A stretch of 64,000 nucleotides of DNA from NCBI GenBank assembly GCA_902615025.1, contig CACMNV010000006.1, positions 1 through 64,000 on the forward strand, read 5' to 3'. Below the pieces are notes generated by a model that saw nothing but the letters and a program-made list of their open reading frames with translations, did not search any database and was not told the origin of the DNA. The position numbers and the translations under genes are program-made. This DNA is from an uncultured SAR116 cluster alpha proteobacterium. GTDB taxonomy: Bacteria > Pseudomonadota > Alphaproteobacteria > Puniceispirillales > Marisalimonadaceae. Shown in pieces: positions 56,520 to 63,828 of this stretch (positions are counted from its first letter, which is position 1; each line of letters begins with the position of its first letter).

Positions 56520-56918
56520 TTAATCTTTTATTGATTTATATATATCTCTTTCGATCCAATATTTCTCTGCTAAATCATTGGCATCACCAATTCTTAGAGA
56601 TAACCCTCTAATTATAGCTGATAAAAGTGGGTCAGCTTCATTCATTTTTTTTATCAATACATTTTCATTTATAATTTTTATTAAGCTTTTTTTGGTTGCT
56701 ATAGCAGTGACTGTTCTAGGTGATTTGATAACATGTCCAACCTCGCCAAATATCTCACCCTCTCTTAGTAAACCTAGTTCAAGACCATTTTTACTTAATA
56801 TTTTTACTTCTCCACTTTCAATTAAGTAAATATAATCAGATAGATCATTATGGGAGTAAATGATATCACCTTCAGTAAATGTTTTTGTTTCGATAATAGA
56901 CTTTCTTGTCATATTCAT
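56520..56918 (-). CDS. Cyclic-nucleotide-binding domain protein
   Basis: A single cNMP-binding domain of 132 residues without an attached effector. Visible are FTEGDIIYSHNDLSDYIYLI, ESGEVKIL, LREGEIFGEVGHVIKSPRTV with the phosphate-binding Gly-Glu and Arg, and TAIATKKSLIKI. An HTH is not seen, so it is not a CRP-like regulator. Paired with fliL, it may tune flagellar motor activity by a cyclic nucleotide; that link is inference. Confidence 0.8.
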   Translation of the reverse strand: MNMTRKSIIETKTFTEGDIIYSHNDLSDYIYLIESGEVKILSKNGLELGLLREGEIFGEVGHVIKSPRTVTAIATKKSLIKIINENVLIKKMNEADPLLSAIIRGLSLRIGDANDLAEKYWIERDIYKSIKD

Positions 56919-57026
56919 ACCATAAGTAAGTATTATTATTTTACGGCAATAATAACATTATTATTAATAAATTTCTTAAAAATAAATTTTTGATTAATTT
57001 TTTTAAAAATTAGTCGTTTAAATAAT

Positions 57027-57176
57027 ATGGATAAAAAAATAGATAAAGAAAAAAATGAAACAATTTTAGAAATTCTTCAAAATGAAGAAGGTATAACTTC
57101 TAAATCTGACCAAAAGGTTTTGTTTATAACTACAGATAGTTGGTTGGCTCAGTTAGGTTTAAGAAAAAACAATTGA
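57027..57176 (+). CDS. Short charged protein, function unknown
   Basis: The 49-residue frame MDKKIDKEKNETILEILQNE to ...TTDSWLAQLGLRKNN has an acidic, helical first half and a hydrophobic second half. It is on the plus strand between divergent and convergent flagellar-island genes. Its TGA abuts the ParA stop codon. There is no clear Shine-Dalgarno. A modest case for a real gene. Confidence 0.4.
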   Translation: MDKKIDKEKNETILEILQNEEGITSKSDQKVLFITTDSWLAQLGLRKNN

Positions 57177-57929
57177 CTATCCTTTTGAAAAGGGAACAAC
57201 ATTTAAATTATTTTTACTATTATGATAAATTTTATCTAATTCGCCTTTTACTACAAATTTATTAACAAAATCACCAAATTTGCCAAAATCTTCACCAGCA
57301 TTTTCACCTTCTTTCATATTATAATTTCCATTATAAAAATGTCTTACACTAGCTAAATCTCTTATAGCTGGTCCAATGACAACGTCATGATTCGAAAGTC
57401 TTTTTGCCATAATGGAGTAATCTTTTTGACCAAAGGGTATTTTATTTGGGCAAACTACTAAATGAGGATAAATTTGGTTATATCTTGCCTTAACTTTATC
57501 CATACTTTTAATAAAACTTTCAGTTGGAGCTAAATCAGCATTACTTAATGAGGTTGGTATTAGTACACAGTAGCTTTCACCAACTAAGTTCCAAAGTCGT
57601 TGAGATGTCCCAGCTGGTGTATCGATTATGACTACATGACCGCTTTTAAAGCTATTCTGTTTAATAAATTGTTGAAGTAGTGCAATGTTTGTATTTTCAA
57701 AAGCTGGGGTAATTGGAACAAACTCAATGTTAATTTCGGGGTTGCTAGCAGATAAAAACTCTGTTGTTGTTCTTTGCAAGTCAGTATCAATAACGGTAAT
57801 GTTTTGAGGAGGTAAATTTAATGCTAGAGCTCTTGCTAACATGATACTTAAGGTACTTTTGCCAACTCCACCTTTAACATTTGCTATAAATATAGATTTG
57901 GCAGTTTCTTTACTAGAAAAGTTAACCAT
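57177..57929 (-). CDS. ParA/MinD-type ATPase without ParB
   Basis: P-loop ATPase of 250 residues. The deviant Walker A is VKGGVGKSTLS at 18-28, an acid-containing strand VIDTDLQRTT follows, and the Walker B-like VVIIDTPAGTS is near 98. These are ParA-family features that position cargo on the nucleoid or membrane. No parB or centromere-like repeat is next to it. It ends a six-gene minus-strand run in the flagellar island, downstream of a coiled-coil gene (3 bases). It is distinct from FlhG at 61886. A role in placing flagella or a related structure is inference. Confidence 0.82.
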   Translation of the reverse strand: MVNFSSKETAKSIFIANVKGGVGKSTLSIMLARALALNLPPQNITVIDTDLQRTTTEFLSASNPEINIEFVPITPAFENTNIALLQQFIKQNSFKSGHVVIIDTPAGTSQRLWNLVGESYCVLIPTSLSNADLAPTESFIKSMDKVKARYNQIYPHLVVCPNKIPFGQKDYSIMAKRLSNHDVVIGPAIRDLASVRHFYNGNYNMKEGENAGEDFGKFGDFVNKFVVKGELDKIYHNSKNNLNVVPFSKG

Positions 57930-57932
57930 AAA

Positions 57933-58316
57933 TCACACGTTTTTTAATGATGTAATTAAATTTATTGCTTTGTCATACATTTCTTTTTCTTTTTGAATAT
58001 TTGTCAATTTTTTATCAAGATTATTTTTTCTAATTTCAAAACTTTTCATTAATTCATTTAATTCACTTATTAAATCATTTTTTTCTTTTTCAACAGCTTT
58101 TAACTTATTAATAATACTATTAATTTCTGTAAAATTCTCAAATAAATTACTGTTAGAATTATCAAGGTTATTACTGTCAAAATTGTCTTCAGTTACATTT
58201 ATATTCAGGTTATCTGAGTTATTTAATTCTAGCTCATCTTTCTTTTGTATAACCTCTTGCGGTAGTTTTTTCCAACCACCTTTTCTAGTTAATACATTTA
58301 CTTCATAATTATCCAT
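57933..58316 (-). CDS. Coiled-coil protein partner of the ParA gene
   Basis: The 127-residue protein begins MDNYEVNVLTRKGGWKKLPQ. It then has an Asn/Asp-rich linker and, after about residue 68, a long Lys/Glu coiled coil (INKLKAVEKEKNDLISELNE onward). No known family is recognised. It is 3 bases from the ParA gene and so is probably co-transcribed and possibly an adaptor that links the ATPase to its cargo. Confidence 0.65.
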   Translation of the reverse strand: MDNYEVNVLTRKGGWKKLPQEVIQKKDELELNNSDNLNINVTEDNFDSNNLDNSNSNLFENFTEINSIINKLKAVEKEKNDLISELNELMKSFEIRKNNLDKKLTNIQKEKEMYDKAINLITSLKNV

Positions 58317-58404: not shown

Positions 58405-58701
58405 TTAATTTTGATCTTCTCTTTTACATTTGAAACTAGTTTGACACTGTGGCGATGGTTGCATTACTGTTACATCTTTGCCTTTTAATTGCCTCCTAAA
58501 TATACATTTATATCCATCTTTTTTTCCGTCTTTTAGGTTGATTTCAACTTTCTTTAACCTACACAATTCATATTTCTTATATTCTTTATCAATTGTCTGC
58601 GACTTACCATAAATTTTACCGCTTCCAAAACTGAATTGTGAATTTAAAACTAACAAAATTAATAGAATGAAAATTAAAAATTTATTTCCCATTTTCTTCA
58701 T
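58405..58701 (-). CDS. Small secreted Cys-containing protein
   Basis: From Met at 58701 the frame begins MKKMGNKFLIFILLILLVLN, a signal peptide, followed by about 75 residues with Cys in YELCRLKKVEI, YKCIFRR, PQCQTSFKCKRE, which could form disulfides in the periplasm. Longer upstream starts would overlap the preceding 64-residue gene more. No known family is recognised. It is separated from the coiled-coil gene by 88 bases with no clear feature, so a new transcript may start there. Confidence 0.6.
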   Translation of the reverse strand: MKKMGNKFLIFILLILLVLNSQFSFGSGKIYGKSQTIDKEYKKYELCRLKKVEINLKDGKKDGYKCIFRRQLKGKDVTVMQPSPQCQTSFKCKREDQN

Positions 58702-58876
58702 CTTTTCCAGGTAAATAAGCTTTTCCTTGGATTGCTTTAGCACCAATTTTATCAAAAAAATCAGAATGTTCAGATAAAAACTTTTGTATTTTGGAATTAA
58801 TTATATTTTCAGCATCTTCTTTAGTTTTTTCGTTAACATTAGCAATGCCATCAATAATCCAATGAACTTTATACAT
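58682..58876 (-). CDS. Small protein, function unknown
   Basis: A 64-residue frame beginning MYKVHWIIDGIANVNEKTKE with helical, charged content and ending PGKDEENGK. It lies 2 bases after the Sel1-like gene and overlaps the next gene's start by 20 bases, so spacing supports it. The KVHWIIDGIA start recalls small ferredoxin-fold-like pieces, but nothing is certain. Confidence 0.55.
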   Translation of the reverse strand: MYKVHWIIDGIANVNEKTKEDAENIINSKIQKFLSEHSDFFDKIGAKAIQGKAYLPGKDEENGK

Positions 58877-58878
58877 AC

Positions 58879-59499
58879 TTAACCTCCAAGATTGTTGATT
58901 TTATTGAAAATCTTAATAGATTCTTTTTGAATTTCAAATAATCTTTCTTTTTCAATTTTTTCAATCATTTCATCTCTTTTAATTTTAGCTGATTTTATGC
59001 CAAGGGCTACTGCAATATTGTACCACTTATAAGCATTTTCAAAATTTGGTTCAGGTGAAAGTTCTATATTCCATTTAGCAATTTGTACAATTGCAAGTTT
59101 ATCTCCAGCTAGTGCAGATTTGTTAAGAAATATTTTAATTTTTTCATTAATTTTAAATTTATTTTCTTCACCTATTAAATCATTTAATTTACTAATAATA
59201 TTAGAACTTTTTTTTAATCCACCAAGTTTAGACGTATTTGCCCAAAAATAAGACATTTCAAAATCTTGAGTAGTGATCTCTCCTGAATAGAGTATTTTTG
59301 CATAAAGTAATTGTGCTTCAGTTTTGTTCTTTTCTGAGAGGCCTTTAAGTTTGTTAATTGCTTCAGTAAATTGTTTATTTCTTAAGTGCTCATATACGTT
59401 TTCAAGATTATTATTATGATTATTACTGTATGATTTATTTGATACTATTATAAGATAAAGAATTAATAGAAAGAAATGGATAATATTACTAATTTTCAA
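58879..59499 (-). CDS. Sel1-like repeat protein, exported
   Basis: 206 residues with an N-terminal hydrophobic segment (FFLLILYLIIVSNKSYS) as signal peptide, then Sel1/TPR-like helical pairs: EAQLLYAKILYSGEITTQD, DFEMSYFWANTSKLGG and NFENAYKWYNIAVALGIKSA. Sel1 proteins are periplasmic or membrane-side scaffolds for protein interaction. It lies 4 bases after the NHLP-like gene and is probably co-expressed. MotX-like flagellar proteins in other bacteria also carry Sel1 repeats; here that comparison is only suggestive. Confidence 0.72.
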   Translation of the reverse strand: MKISNIIHFFLLILYLIIVSNKSYSNNHNNNLENVYEHLRNKQFTEAINKLKGLSEKNKTEAQLLYAKILYSGEITTQDFEMSYFWANTSKLGGLKKSSNIISKLNDLIGEENKFKINEKIKIFLNKSALAGDKLAIVQIAKWNIELSPEPNFENAYKWYNIAVALGIKSAKIKRDEMIEKIEKERLFEIQKESIKIFNKINNLGG

Positions 59500-59503
59500 A
59501 AGC

Positions 59504-59893
59504 TTATCTCCCAGCCATCATTATTAGTTGAAGTTGAACAACTCTTACTTTAAAATTTGATTTACCTTTTCTTTCATAAACTACAATTTTGGGTCTTTTT
59601 GTATCAGGTTTTTGAAATTCTAAAAACATTTCATCAGGCAAAAAAACGCCGTTGTCAGATAAAGTTCTTAATGGGTCCGTTTTAAATTTATCTTTAAAAT
59701 TTTCATCTATCCATATTCTTGCTAAAACTCTTCCTAATATTTCTGGCAAATATTTTTTAACTTCATTTCTATTTTCAAGAAAAATTTCATCATCAACTAA
59801 ATCTAAAACTGAACTTTCATTATATTTCACTGGCAATTTTTCTTTTGCTTTGGTTGATACAATGAGTTCTTTGCTTTTAGATTGTGAAGACAT
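59504..59893 (-). CDS. NHLP/nitrile-hydratase-leader-like protein
   Basis: The 129-residue protein has an acidic N-terminal part with DLVDDEIFLENRNEV. Then comes GRVLARIWIDENFKDKFKTD, followed by PLRTLSDNGVFLPDEM and KIVVYERKGKSNFKV. The pattern (ARxWxDxxFKxxxxxDPxxxLxxxGxxxPxx) is the nitrile hydratase alpha/NHLP leader-peptide fold used by some RiPP precursors. No RiPP modifying enzyme, transporter or RRE protein is near, and the protein continues for about 40 residues past the leader-like part to an ending MMAGR. It opens a six-gene run in the flagellar island. Confidence 0.62.
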   Translation of the reverse strand: MSSQSKSKELIVSTKAKEKLPVKYNESSVLDLVDDEIFLENRNEVKKYLPEILGRVLARIWIDENFKDKFKTDPLRTLSDNGVFLPDEMFLEFQKPDTKRPKIVVYERKGKSNFKVRVVQLQLIMMAGR

Positions 59894-59972
59894 AATTATT
59901 ATTATTTCATATTTAAACTTTTTTCAAATTTTGTTTAAACCTTATTTGGTACAATAATTGCAATAACTTGAT

Positions 59973-60791
59973 ATGTTAAATATAATTAAATCGTCATTAA
60001 ATGCAAATATGAGAGGTATCTCTCTTGTTTCAAACAATATAGCTAATAGTAATACGACTGCTTTTAAAAAAAGTTATAGTAATTTTTCAGATATATATTC
60101 TAAGACCATTGGTGATGATCCAAAAGGATTTTCAGGGATGGGAGTAATTAATGATTCTCCAAGAAAACAGATGTTTCAAGGACCACTTAAGCAGACTGAT
60201 GGTGCATTAGATTTAGCAGTAAGTGGATTAGGTTTCTTAACATTAGCTAGTCCTAACAATAATGAAAATAGATTTTATACGAGAGATGGAAGTTTAGGGT
60301 TATCCAGTAATGGAGAGGTTATAAATCAGCAAGGTCTAAATCTTCTTGCACACCCAGTTGTTGGTAATGCCACATATAATCCAGCTATTCTTGAAAAGGT
60401 AATTATACAACCTAGTATTACAGATACATTAGGCAATACCAGAATCCTTACAAATGTAAATGTTTCACCATCAGGCGTTTTAAAAGCTATTTACGGATTA
60501 GATGAAGAAGTTGTAATTGCTAAAATACCTCTTACTTCTTTTGAAAGTATGGAAGCATTGCAATCTGAAGGGAACAATCTTTTCACACCCACAACTAAAT
60601 CAGGCGAACCTATAGTTGGAATAGCATTAGAGAAAAATATGGGTGAAATAATCCCGGGATTTTTAGAGGGTTCTAATGTAGAAATAACAGATGAGTTAGT
60701 AAAGATGTTAAAATATCAACAAGCTTATTCAGGAAATTCAAGATTGTTGCAAACTGAAATAGATATCACAAAAAGACTCATAGACAGATAA
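59973..60791 (+). CDS. Flagellar hook/basal-body rod family protein (FlgE/F/G)
   Basis: Secreted axial protein of 272 residues. The N-terminal rod motif is SLVSNNIANSNTTAFKKSYS; the middle has DGALDLAVSGLGFLTLAS and the YTRDGSLGLSSNGEVIN segment. The C-terminus LKYQQAYSGNSRLLQTEIDI is the matching coiled coil. FlgF, FlgG and a short FlgE share these parts, and length cannot decide between them. Single plus-strand gene convergent with the next, in a flagellar island. Confidence 0.9.
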   Translation: MLNIIKSSLNANMRGISLVSNNIANSNTTAFKKSYSNFSDIYSKTIGDDPKGFSGMGVINDSPRKQMFQGPLKQTDGALDLAVSGLGFLTLASPNNNENRFYTRDGSLGLSSNGEVINQQGLNLLAHPVVGNATYNPAILEKVIIQPSITDTLGNTRILTNVNVSPSGVLKAIYGLDEEVVIAKIPLTSFESMEALQSEGNNLFTPTTKSGEPIVGIALEKNMGEIIPGFLEGSNVEITDELVKMLKYQQAYSGNSRLLQTEIDITKRLIDR

Positions 60792-61176: not shown

Positions 61177-61896
61177 TTAATTAAATTCATCTTTAATGTT
61201 GGATCTAATTAACTTTAAAGCTGATGACTTAATTTGTGAAACTCTTCCAGTAGAAATTTCTAAAATTTCTGCAATTTCATAGATGTTTAATTCTTCAACA
61301 TAATAAAGTTGAATAAGCATTGCTTGTTTCTCATTCAGACAAGATAAAGACTTTTTTAAAATTTCTTTTAATTCTTTGTTATTAATATTTTGCTCTGGAC
61401 TATCCTCATTACTAACAAACCAATAAGAAAATTCGTCATAAATATCATCAATATTTTTAATAGTGCTTGCTTGAAAAGCTGCTTCCCATTCTAAATATTT
61501 ATTGTGTTCTATATTAATTTCTTTTGCAATTTCTATGCTGTCGGGTACTCTACCAAGTTTTTTATTTAAATTTTCAATGGCATTTTCAGCTGTCTTTTTC
61601 ATTTTAATAGTTGATCTACATAAACTTGAATTCTTTCTTAAATAATCTACTATCTCACCTCTGATTCTTAAGCTTGCATATGAACTGAAAGAAGCATCTT
61701 TCACTGGTTTATAATTTTGAGCAGCAGAAATTAATCCTATCATTCCAATTTGGATTAGATCTTCAATATCAATAATAGATTGAACTCTTCCATGAAGGTG
61801 CCATGCAATTTTTTTAACAAGTTCGTAGTTGTTTTTAATTAAATCTTCAACAGTAGGACCAATGATTTTTTGATAATTATTCATTTCAATTTTCAA
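61177..61896 (-). CDS. fliA: Flagellar sigma factor FliA (sigma-28)
   Basis: Sigma factor of 239 residues. Region 2 ([40 protein letters not shown]) and region 3 ([17 protein letters not shown]) are clear, and region 4 ([20 protein letters not shown]) is the HTH for the -35 element. Small size and lack of region 1 fit the flagellar class. It overlaps flhG by 11 bases and follows flhF, the order known in polar-flagellated bacteria. An anti-sigma FlgM is not in the window. Confidence 0.94.
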
Positions 61897-62659
61897 AAAA
61901 TTTTATATTTTTGTTTTTATTTGATTTTAGATTTTTTAAATTTTTACAAATTGTTTCAAAATATACTGTTTCTTTAATATTTTGATTATCAATTATTGGT
62001 TTTCTTGACAAAATTGATTGTCTTATTAATTTTGAGTTATTTACACATCCTAAGTAAGTTAATTTTATATCTAAAAATTTAGTAGATATTGAACTAAATT
62101 TTTCAAAATGATTTTTTGCTTGAAAATCATTATTACTCATATTCCAAACAATGCCAAAATTATCTAATCTTTCATCTAAATAACTTGCTTTAACTAAACT
62201 ATATGCATCTGCGAAACTAGTTGGTTCACTCACTAAGACTGTAATTATCTTGTTTGCAGCTGACATAAACGAAATTGAAGAAGTGTCTGCTCCAGCACCT
62301 ATATCAATTATCATATAATCATAAGTTTTTTTGATCTCGTTAAAGCTTTTTATTATGTTATATCTCTCTGTATTTTCAAGATTCAGTAATGAATGAACAG
62401 CACTTCCTCCAGATATAAAGTCTAAATTTTTATTAATTTTATAAGAAATTTTACTAATAGGAGTTTTTTTATTAATGAAATCATCTAGAGTTTTTTCTGG
62501 ATTAACACCTAATACTAGATGTGCATTTGCCATTCCTAAATCCGCATCTAATAGCAAAGTCTTGTTTCCATTTTTTGCTAATGTCAAAGCAACGTTAACC
62601 GCAATAGTTGTCTTACCAACTCCACCTTTGCCACTTGATACAGCAATACTTTCTGTCAT
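61886..62659 (-). CDS. flhG: FlhG/FleN flagellar-number ATPase
   Basis: MinD-like ATPase of 257 residues with the deviant Walker [14 protein letters not shown] at 8-20, [17 protein letters not shown] near 35, [14 protein letters not shown] near 112 and [15 protein letters not shown] near 142. FlhG counteracts FlhF to set flagellar number and place. It lies 26 bases after flhF and overlaps fliA. Confidence 0.95.
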
Positions 62660-62685: not shown

Positions 62686-63828
62686 TTAGTTTTCTTTCAT
62701 ATATTGTGCCAAAATGAGGCTATTTGCAAAAGCAATTGAGTCTATTATGTTATTTGTTCCAGACAACAATCCTAATTTACAGTTTAAATCATGATACATT
62801 GAAAAATCATAAGAATTTACAATTATTTCATCTAGTTTAGTTAAAACATTGATAGGGTTTAGTCCATCAAAATAACTCATTTGTTTTTCTAAGCTTTTAA
62901 AATTAATCCCAGATTGAATAACATTTAAAAGTAATTTTCTATTATCCAAATGTGTAATTTTCAAGTAATTATTAAAATTTTTGTCAACTAAAAAATCTTT
63001 AGAGATATCAACAATTATTGTTTCATTGTTATTTTCTGAGATATATTTATTTAGATTTTCAATTTCTGAAAAAGAATAAACATTTAAATTTAAGACTCTT
63101 CCAAAATTAAATAAATTAGAAGTCTTATTTGGAGAAGTTTTTCCAAAGTTTATTAATGTAATATTATTATTATTATGAGATAACATTGATTGATCAAGGA
63201 AATATGAAGCAATTTTTGCACAGATTGTTGTTTTCCCGACACCTGATAAACCGGCAACTAAAATAGTTTTAGAATTTAATAATTTATCTTTTAAATCAAA
63301 CGTTAGCTTCTTAGACAAAACGTCATAAAAATTAATTATTGATCTTGAAGTTTCATTTTTGTTTAAATTTTCAAAAATATTATTTATTGTTTTTTTTGAG
63401 TATCCTGCATTTAATAATTTTATAAAATTATTATCATCAATATGATTATTTAAAGAGTTTAAATCAGTAAAAATACTCTCATTTAAAATTGATTTAATTT
63501 CACACTTAAAAATTTCTAAATCTTTCTTTGAAATAAAATTTTCTTCATCTGTTAATTTTTCATTTTTGTTATTTTTAATTACGGAATTAATGCTGTTATT
63601 AGAGAAATTTTTAGATAAAGGAGCCTTCGAAAAAAGTTCTTTAAAGTCAGGTTTTTTTTTATTTTTTTTACTTGATTTTAAAATATCTTTAATATCATTT
63701 GACCCAATGATTTCAATTTTTTGACCTATTTTTTTTGTAGATAAAATTACAGCATCTTGGCCTAAGACTCTCGTAATTTCATCCATCGCAGTCATGCTAT
63801 CATCTGATAAAACTTTATGTTGCGTCAT
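62686..63828 (-). CDS. flhF: FlhF flagellar-placement GTPase
   Basis: SRP-type GTPase of 380 residues that marks the pole for flagellum assembly. The basic N-terminus MTQHKVLSDDSMTAMDEITR carries ITRVLGQDAVILSTKKI, typical of FlhF. The NG domain has VAGLSGVGKTTICAKIA near 191-207, and LTKLDEI near 335 for guanine recognition. The C-terminal GTPase half looks divergent: a DISKDFL segment stands where G3 (DTAG) is expected. It lies 17 bases downstream of flhA. Confidence 0.88.
   Translation of the reverse strand: MTQHKVLSDDSMTAMDEITRVLGQDAVILSTKKIGQKIEIIGSNDIKDILKSSKKNKKKPDFKELFSKAPLSKNFSNNSINSVIKNNKNEKLTDEENFISKKDLEIFKCEIKSILNESIFTDLNSLNNHIDDNNFIKLLNAGYSKKTINNIFENLNKNETSRSIINFYDVLSKKLTFDLKDKLLNSKTILVAGLSGVGKTTICAKIASYFLDQSMLSHNNNNITLINFGKTSPNKTSNLFNFGRVLNLNVYSFSEIENLNKYISENNNETIIVDISKDFLVDKNFNNYLKITHLDNRKLLLNVIQSGINFKSLEKQMSYFDGLNPINVLTKLDEIIVNSYDFSMYHDLNCKLGLLSGTNNIIDSIAFANSLILAQYMKEN

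Follow-up and report, generated by a model that had tools for sequence, protein, structure and literature searches.

A protein with the NHLP leader fold beside the flagellar genes of SAR116 bacteria and its probable role as a flagellar binding protein

The stretch of DNA analysed here, referred to as the window, is 64 kb long and has a G+C content of 28.8%. Positions 59504 to 59893 of its minus strand hold an open reading frame that begins with ATG and encodes a protein of 129 amino acids. Residues 1 to 40 (59774..59893, minus strand) constitute an N-terminal extension, the least conserved part of the protein, with a mean pLDDT of 49–81 per block of ten residues in the structural model. Residues 51 to 92 (59618..59743, minus strand) constitute a segment that resembles the NHLP leader as described by the model TIGR03793 and comprises three helices and a first strand. 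Residues 93 to 129 (59507..59617, minus strand) make up a C-terminal tail of the form RPxIVVYE ... LQLxMxAGR, which contributes two further strands and is the part under the strongest purifying selection. The closest database relatives come from nine loci, are 84–95% identical and belong mostly to SAR116 single-cell genomes and MAGs, which places the window in the SAR116 cluster. Phage records contain no match to the protein, and plasmid records a single weak one (E 7e-3), a Thalassospira entry whose annotation is thiocillin family RiPP.

The gene stands among flagellar genes, a setting that goes beyond the earlier note on this DNA. Its divergent neighbour is a gene for an flgF-type rod protein (59973..60791, plus strand), which exceeds the cut-off of TIGR03506 (E 5.1e-59), matches the flgF model TIGR02490 below its cut-off (E 2.6e-37) and carries PF06429. 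Beyond it on the minus strand lie P126 (60794..61174), a conserved gene between flgF and fliA; fliA, encoding sigma-28 (61177..61896), with 206.4 bits over the cut-off of TIGR02479; a gene for an flhG-like MinD/ParA ATPase (61886..62659), which matches TIGR01969 below the cut-off (E 3.8e-30) and takes its name from its context beside flhF and fliA; and flhF (62686..63828), which matches TIGR03499 below the cut-off (E 7.5e-23). P126 has a family member in 25 of 30 loci and no NCBIfam match, and is conserved across the order. The same flagellar neighbourhood includes fliL, further off. Between fliL and the small gene LP116, the minus strand at 56520-58316 encodes a cNMP-binding protein, a ParA-like ATPase and a coiled-coil protein; loci of the window's own family (f1) were the only ones to yield homologues of these three.

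The 79-bp region shared by flgF and the NHLP-fold gene contains a −24/−12 motif upstream of flgF, TGGYAYNNNNNTTGCW (59947..59962, plus strand), which we take to be sigma-54-like. This is its single exact match in the window, and with at most one mismatch there are 13 matches against 7.35 expected. A regular-expression search finds a similar sigma-54-like site in the same intergenic region of 6 of 20 loci. An element like GGCATNATA, perhaps a −10 box, recurs by inspection upstream of the NHLP-fold start in several genera (L048-L064).

Three genes follow the NHLP-fold gene on the same strand. The first, SEL (58879..59499), encodes a Sel1-repeat protein with a hydrophobic N-terminus, and PF08238 is found in 19 of 20 SEL members. 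The two genes are tightly coupled: of 42 loci, 41 have a junction between −4 and +7 nt. The N-terminus of SEL looks signal-like by inspection and suggests that the protein is exported. A resemblance to the motor protein MotX comes from NF047621, matched by 11 of 20 SEL members at E<=0.1 (best 4e-4), and from MotX in the PDB (E 6e-4). The match, however, covers the Sel1-type repeats, another Sel1 protein (6ok3) scores far better at E 3.9e-28, and the one score listed against NF047621 is 13.0 bits for a cut-off of 330. The likeness is weak, perhaps no more than what Sel1 proteins share in general; it lends appeal to a motor-related role without proving one. The second gene, S64 (58682..58876), encodes a small protein with the same genome distribution as the NHLP-fold gene, and its model (mean pLDDT 65) is too poor for a fold search. 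The third, LP116 (58405..58692), encodes a small protein with a hydrophobic N-terminus and, in the family alignment, four invariant Cys; its start was set from relatives, while the listed reading frame starts at 58755.

The NHLP relationship appears first in the profile comparisons. Against NCBIfam, residues 51 to 92 match model positions 4–45 of the 77 in TIGR03793 at E 4.8e-6, with 26.3 bits where the curated cut-off is 50.9, a cut-off exceeded by none of the family members scanned individually. NF038399 matches at E 1.1e-3, related models of the NHLP clan score weaker than TIGR03793, and Pfam-A gives no match to the protein. In a diverse alignment, 30 of 30 homologues match TIGR03793 at E<=0.01 (best 1.2e-7), and a very divergent member from the genome G198 reaches E 0.044 only. 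Searched against the PDB, the family profile finds the nitrile hydratase alpha subunit 1v29 (E 7.5e-6) and the proteusin leader 8tb1 (E 4.6e-5).

A template-free AlphaFold2 model (mean pLDDT 79.3) places helices at residues 42-62, 64-72 and 74-80 and strands at 89-94, 102-108 and 115-122. When 1000 chains were re-aligned to it with VIA-align, the top two were both proteusin leaders: 8tb1 with a Z of 6.0, modest taken alone, an rmsd of 3.0 and 70 residues, and 9cjx with a Z of 5.0, an rmsd of 4.0 and 76 residues. The third-ranked chain has a Z of 3.8. Foldseek alone returned no match to the model at E<=0.001, its best NHLP entry being 8tb1 at rank 4 (E 0.49). The relationship is persuasive because sequence and structure evidence agree, and together they indicate that the protein shares fold and ancestry with NHLP leaders and nitrile hydratase alpha. 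The NHLP leader fold proposed in the earlier note is thereby borne out by TIGR03793, by the family profile against 1v29 and 8tb1, and by the template-free model. The comparison with TIGR03793 and nitrile hydratase alpha that it had suggested returned matches; neither of the outcomes that it had named as speaking against its reading, the lack of any significant score or a clear match to a different fold, came about.

Fold alone does not define a precursor peptide. In NHLP precursors a Gly-Gly site ends the conserved region, the hypervariable core that follows is often rich in Cys, Ser or Thr, and an ABC exporter is associated, according to the accessible part of PMC2887384. In the window protein, the tail after the leader-like part comprises 37 residues with no Cys, one Ser and one Thr, much as had been claimed from the letters (about 40 residues, not rich in these three). 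The last 37 residues are Cys-free in 29 of 29 members, and Gly-Gly at the end of the conserved region is absent in all 29; it is present only in the N-terminal extension of two members. Mean majority identity is 0.95 over residues 121-129, 0.78 over 41-62 and 0.62 over 63-88. The whole chain is under purifying selection, above all the tail: median dN/dS is 0.083 overall (28 pairs among eight close relatives), and in the same relatives it is 0.084 in residues 41-92 (27 usable pairs) versus 0.02 in the tail. Homologues do share a conserved tail, then, the feature that the earlier note had proposed to look for. The last codons overlap a purine-rich stretch just ahead of the SEL start codon, so ribosome binding for SEL may account for part of the constraint on the final AGR.

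For YcaO and the NHLM ABC1 exporter, the earlier observation that RiPP machinery is missing extends from the window to its own genome (74% complete), which contains no YcaO and no such exporter over the cut-off. Among 101 genomes of relatives, the exporter model TIGR03796 is over its cut-off in none and YcaO is present in one. The window's own genome has just one other TIGR03793 match, on contig C23, which was rejected as a paralogue because it proved to be an authentic alpha subunit of nitrile hydratase (E 2.6e-92). The locus L046:5704-8439 of this genome carries nitrile hydratase alpha and beta-like genes (by inspection) and an alcohol-dehydrogenase-like gene.

The conserved tail, the Gly-Gly test and the missing exporter are the grounds for rejecting a plain RiPP precursor, and it is very unlikely that the 129-aa protein is a RiPP precursor. 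A precursor could still be processed in trans by enzymes encoded elsewhere in the genome. TIGR03793 is matched in all 30 members, and precursors may sit far from their enzymes, as stated in the accessible part of PMC2887384. Processing in trans is nevertheless hardly credible for a protein that has neither a terminal Gly-Gly nor a hypervariable core rich in Cys, Ser and Thr, whose leader is less conserved than its tail, and in whose relatives the exporter and YcaO are as rare as counted above. Neither catalytic nor RiPP features are present in the window protein.

The complete chain is free of Cys in 27 of 29 members, the window protein included. Flagellar axial proteins are usually Cys-free, and this property bears on the possibility that the NHLP-fold protein is itself exported by the flagellar type III gate and partners the exported SEL around the rod or motor. 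Such a role would fit the low-confidence N-terminus of the model and the tight coupling to SEL with its hydrophobic, signal-like N-terminus (by inspection). It is nonetheless unlikely: signatures of rod, hook or flagellin proteins are missing from the protein, axial proteins do not typically contain a compact NHLP-like domain, and genes for cytoplasmic products often lie together with genes for periplasmic ones.

The flagellar neighbourhood is conserved within the SAR116 order. The NHLP-fold gene adjoins flgF in 30 of 31 loci, and SEL is next in 29, the two loci without it being a contig end and a paralogue (L065, in G066). The loci are partly non-independent: L034-L045, taken from named records, stem from close relatives that some of the G genomes also represent, and L041 and L042 are one MAG. 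Homologues are present in 92 of the order's 136 genomes. Among the 101 relatives, the gene is found in 69 and flhA in 68; 64 genomes have both, 5 the NHLP-fold gene only, 4 flhA only and 28 neither, with a Fisher p of 9e-16 that overstates independence, the 101 genomes being related. Among the exceptions, the five genomes with the NHLP-fold gene only keep flagellar genes beside it, and in the four with flhA only the contigs stop before the expected NHLP-fold site, whose position was deduced from relatives.

Within the order, linkage to flagellar genes alone would produce joint loss with flhA. Synteny there is nearly fixed, so that linkage and function are inseparable, and the gene could have an unrelated function and be kept beside flagellar genes by vertical inheritance. 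This explanation is given little probability in view of the wider class, where the gene has moved in other lineages and flagellar genes are near it again, and where flhA accompanies the family without exception. The class sample comprised 386 alphaproteobacterial genomes, namely the window's own and others at least 80% complete. The NHLP-fold family is matched in 19 of them, and in 11 at E<1e-19. The other eight genomes, whose matches are weak (best E 1.7e-6 to 5.8e-4), are not counted among the 11; in six of these eight genomes (all except G342 and G429) the loci encode NHLP proteins ending in Gly-Gly, nitrile hydratase alpha, or two NHLP-like segments. All 11 positive genomes contain flhA, versus 226 of the 386, and these 11 are also precisely the genomes of the 386 that carry the S64 family.

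Two lineages illustrate the movement. In family f12, the block of NHLP-fold gene, SEL, S64 and LP116 has moved from flgF to a site with bactofilins, an M23 peptidase, rpoN and motA (motA by inspection). Beside the moved block, one such locus (L092:6589-7687) shows three bactofilin-like genes in a row (one tested, the others by inspection), together with the M23 peptidase and a lytic transglycosylase-like gene. The NHLP-fold gene is present in 24 of 32 f12 genomes and flhA in 27 of 32, with seven flhA-positive genomes lacking the NHLP-fold gene, an absence that is uncertain since f12 genomes are incomplete. With nearly all members flhA-positive, this family has little power to test the flagellar link independently and was set aside for that purpose. 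Two of the seven, G234 and G325, have flhA in the class sample, no S64 match and a flgF-fliA-flhF block without the NHLP-fold gene, which is the arrangement expected in f12. In the genome G198, the NHLP-SEL pair lies near flgA, flgM, flagellin, fliS and motA, and S64 is 9.4 kb from the NHLP-fold gene; adjacency therefore does not explain the co-distribution of the two there. Two extra contigs of G530 place an NHLP-SEL pair near flgT/flgA/flgM and near fliD/motB, copies (L151, L152) that may be contamination (7%).

Proximity to flagellin raises the possibility of a flagellin regulator or chaperone with a role like that of FlbT, FlaF or FliS. In G066, roughly 266 bp separate the paralogue from the flagellin gene that precedes it, and the G198 gene is within 2 kb of a flagellin gene. 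Yet the main copy is found at flgF and fliA, away from flagellin genes, and G198 also encodes FliS nearby, which makes this role quite unlikely.

The explanation favoured here, at a probability of roughly 0.6, is that a non-RiPP protein of the NHLP/nitrile-hydratase-alpha fold serves as a dedicated flagellar cytoplasmic binding or adaptor protein in SAR116 and some other alphaproteobacterial lineages. The earlier note had likewise suggested that the leader fold may have been turned into a binding domain. The alpha1-alpha3/beta1 unit and the two lineage-specific strands would form a compact docking domain. Since it shows no hydrophobic segment for export, the protein probably works in the cytoplasm. 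Much as NHLP domains recognise their modifying enzymes, its docking domain would attach to a flagellar client through protein-protein contact, and it would serve motor assembly or function together with exported SEL and S64. Any named flagellar client deserves less confidence than the flagellar binding-protein reading as a whole. The odds are slightly better than even for a wider reading, in which the NHLP/nitrile-hydratase leader fold, otherwise found in enzymes and natural products, has been taken up as a subunit specific to the flagellum. On that reading the protein would be a docking domain that carries a conserved tail of its own, and together with SEL and S64 it would form a module that is inherited jointly and, in marine alphaproteobacteria, moves from one flagellar locus to another.

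Proteins that match NHLP models tend to be interpreted as RiPP precursors; for the entire family described here, such an interpretation would be wrong. No report of a link between NHLP proteins and flagella was found in the open full-text literature, which covers few subscription journals. If the flagellar binding-protein reading is true, the flagella of these abundant marine bacteria contain an undescribed accessory component with co-inherited partners, and the folded part of the NHLP leader may be a general docking domain, beyond its use as a recognition tag.

A comparison with known systems sets the protein apart from each of its relatives. The Os1348 family (NF038399, 6lk7) resembles it, with 18 of 30 members matching at E<=0.01 and a Z of 3.2 for 6lk7; Os1348, an antibiotic-related small protein in Pseudomonas according to the accessible part of PMC7726476, is not flagellar. 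The likeness to nitrile hydratase alpha (TIGR01323) lies in the family-profile match to 1v29, which covers two stretches. In contrast to that enzyme, the window protein has no metal-binding CxxCSC segment, containing no Cys, and no adjacent beta subunit. The protein lacks the features by which NHLP precursors and nitrile hydratase alpha are defined as working families.

With proteusin and other NHLP leaders (TIGR03793; 8tb1, 9cjx), sequence and model point to the same alpha1-alpha3/beta1 core. It is over this unit that a proteusin leader and nitrile hydratase correspond, with little or nothing further downstream, in the available text of PMC10858898. The same portion describes another enzyme whose binding to a proteusin leader is confined to the disordered part, and the available portion of PMC12455567 describes the folded NHLP part as engaging its partners through protein-protein surfaces. 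Unlike NHLP leaders, the window protein has no Gly-Gly site, no variable core, no YcaO in its own genome and no exporter over the cut-off in 101 genomes; it has instead an N-terminal extension, a conserved C-terminal tail and flagellar neighbours.
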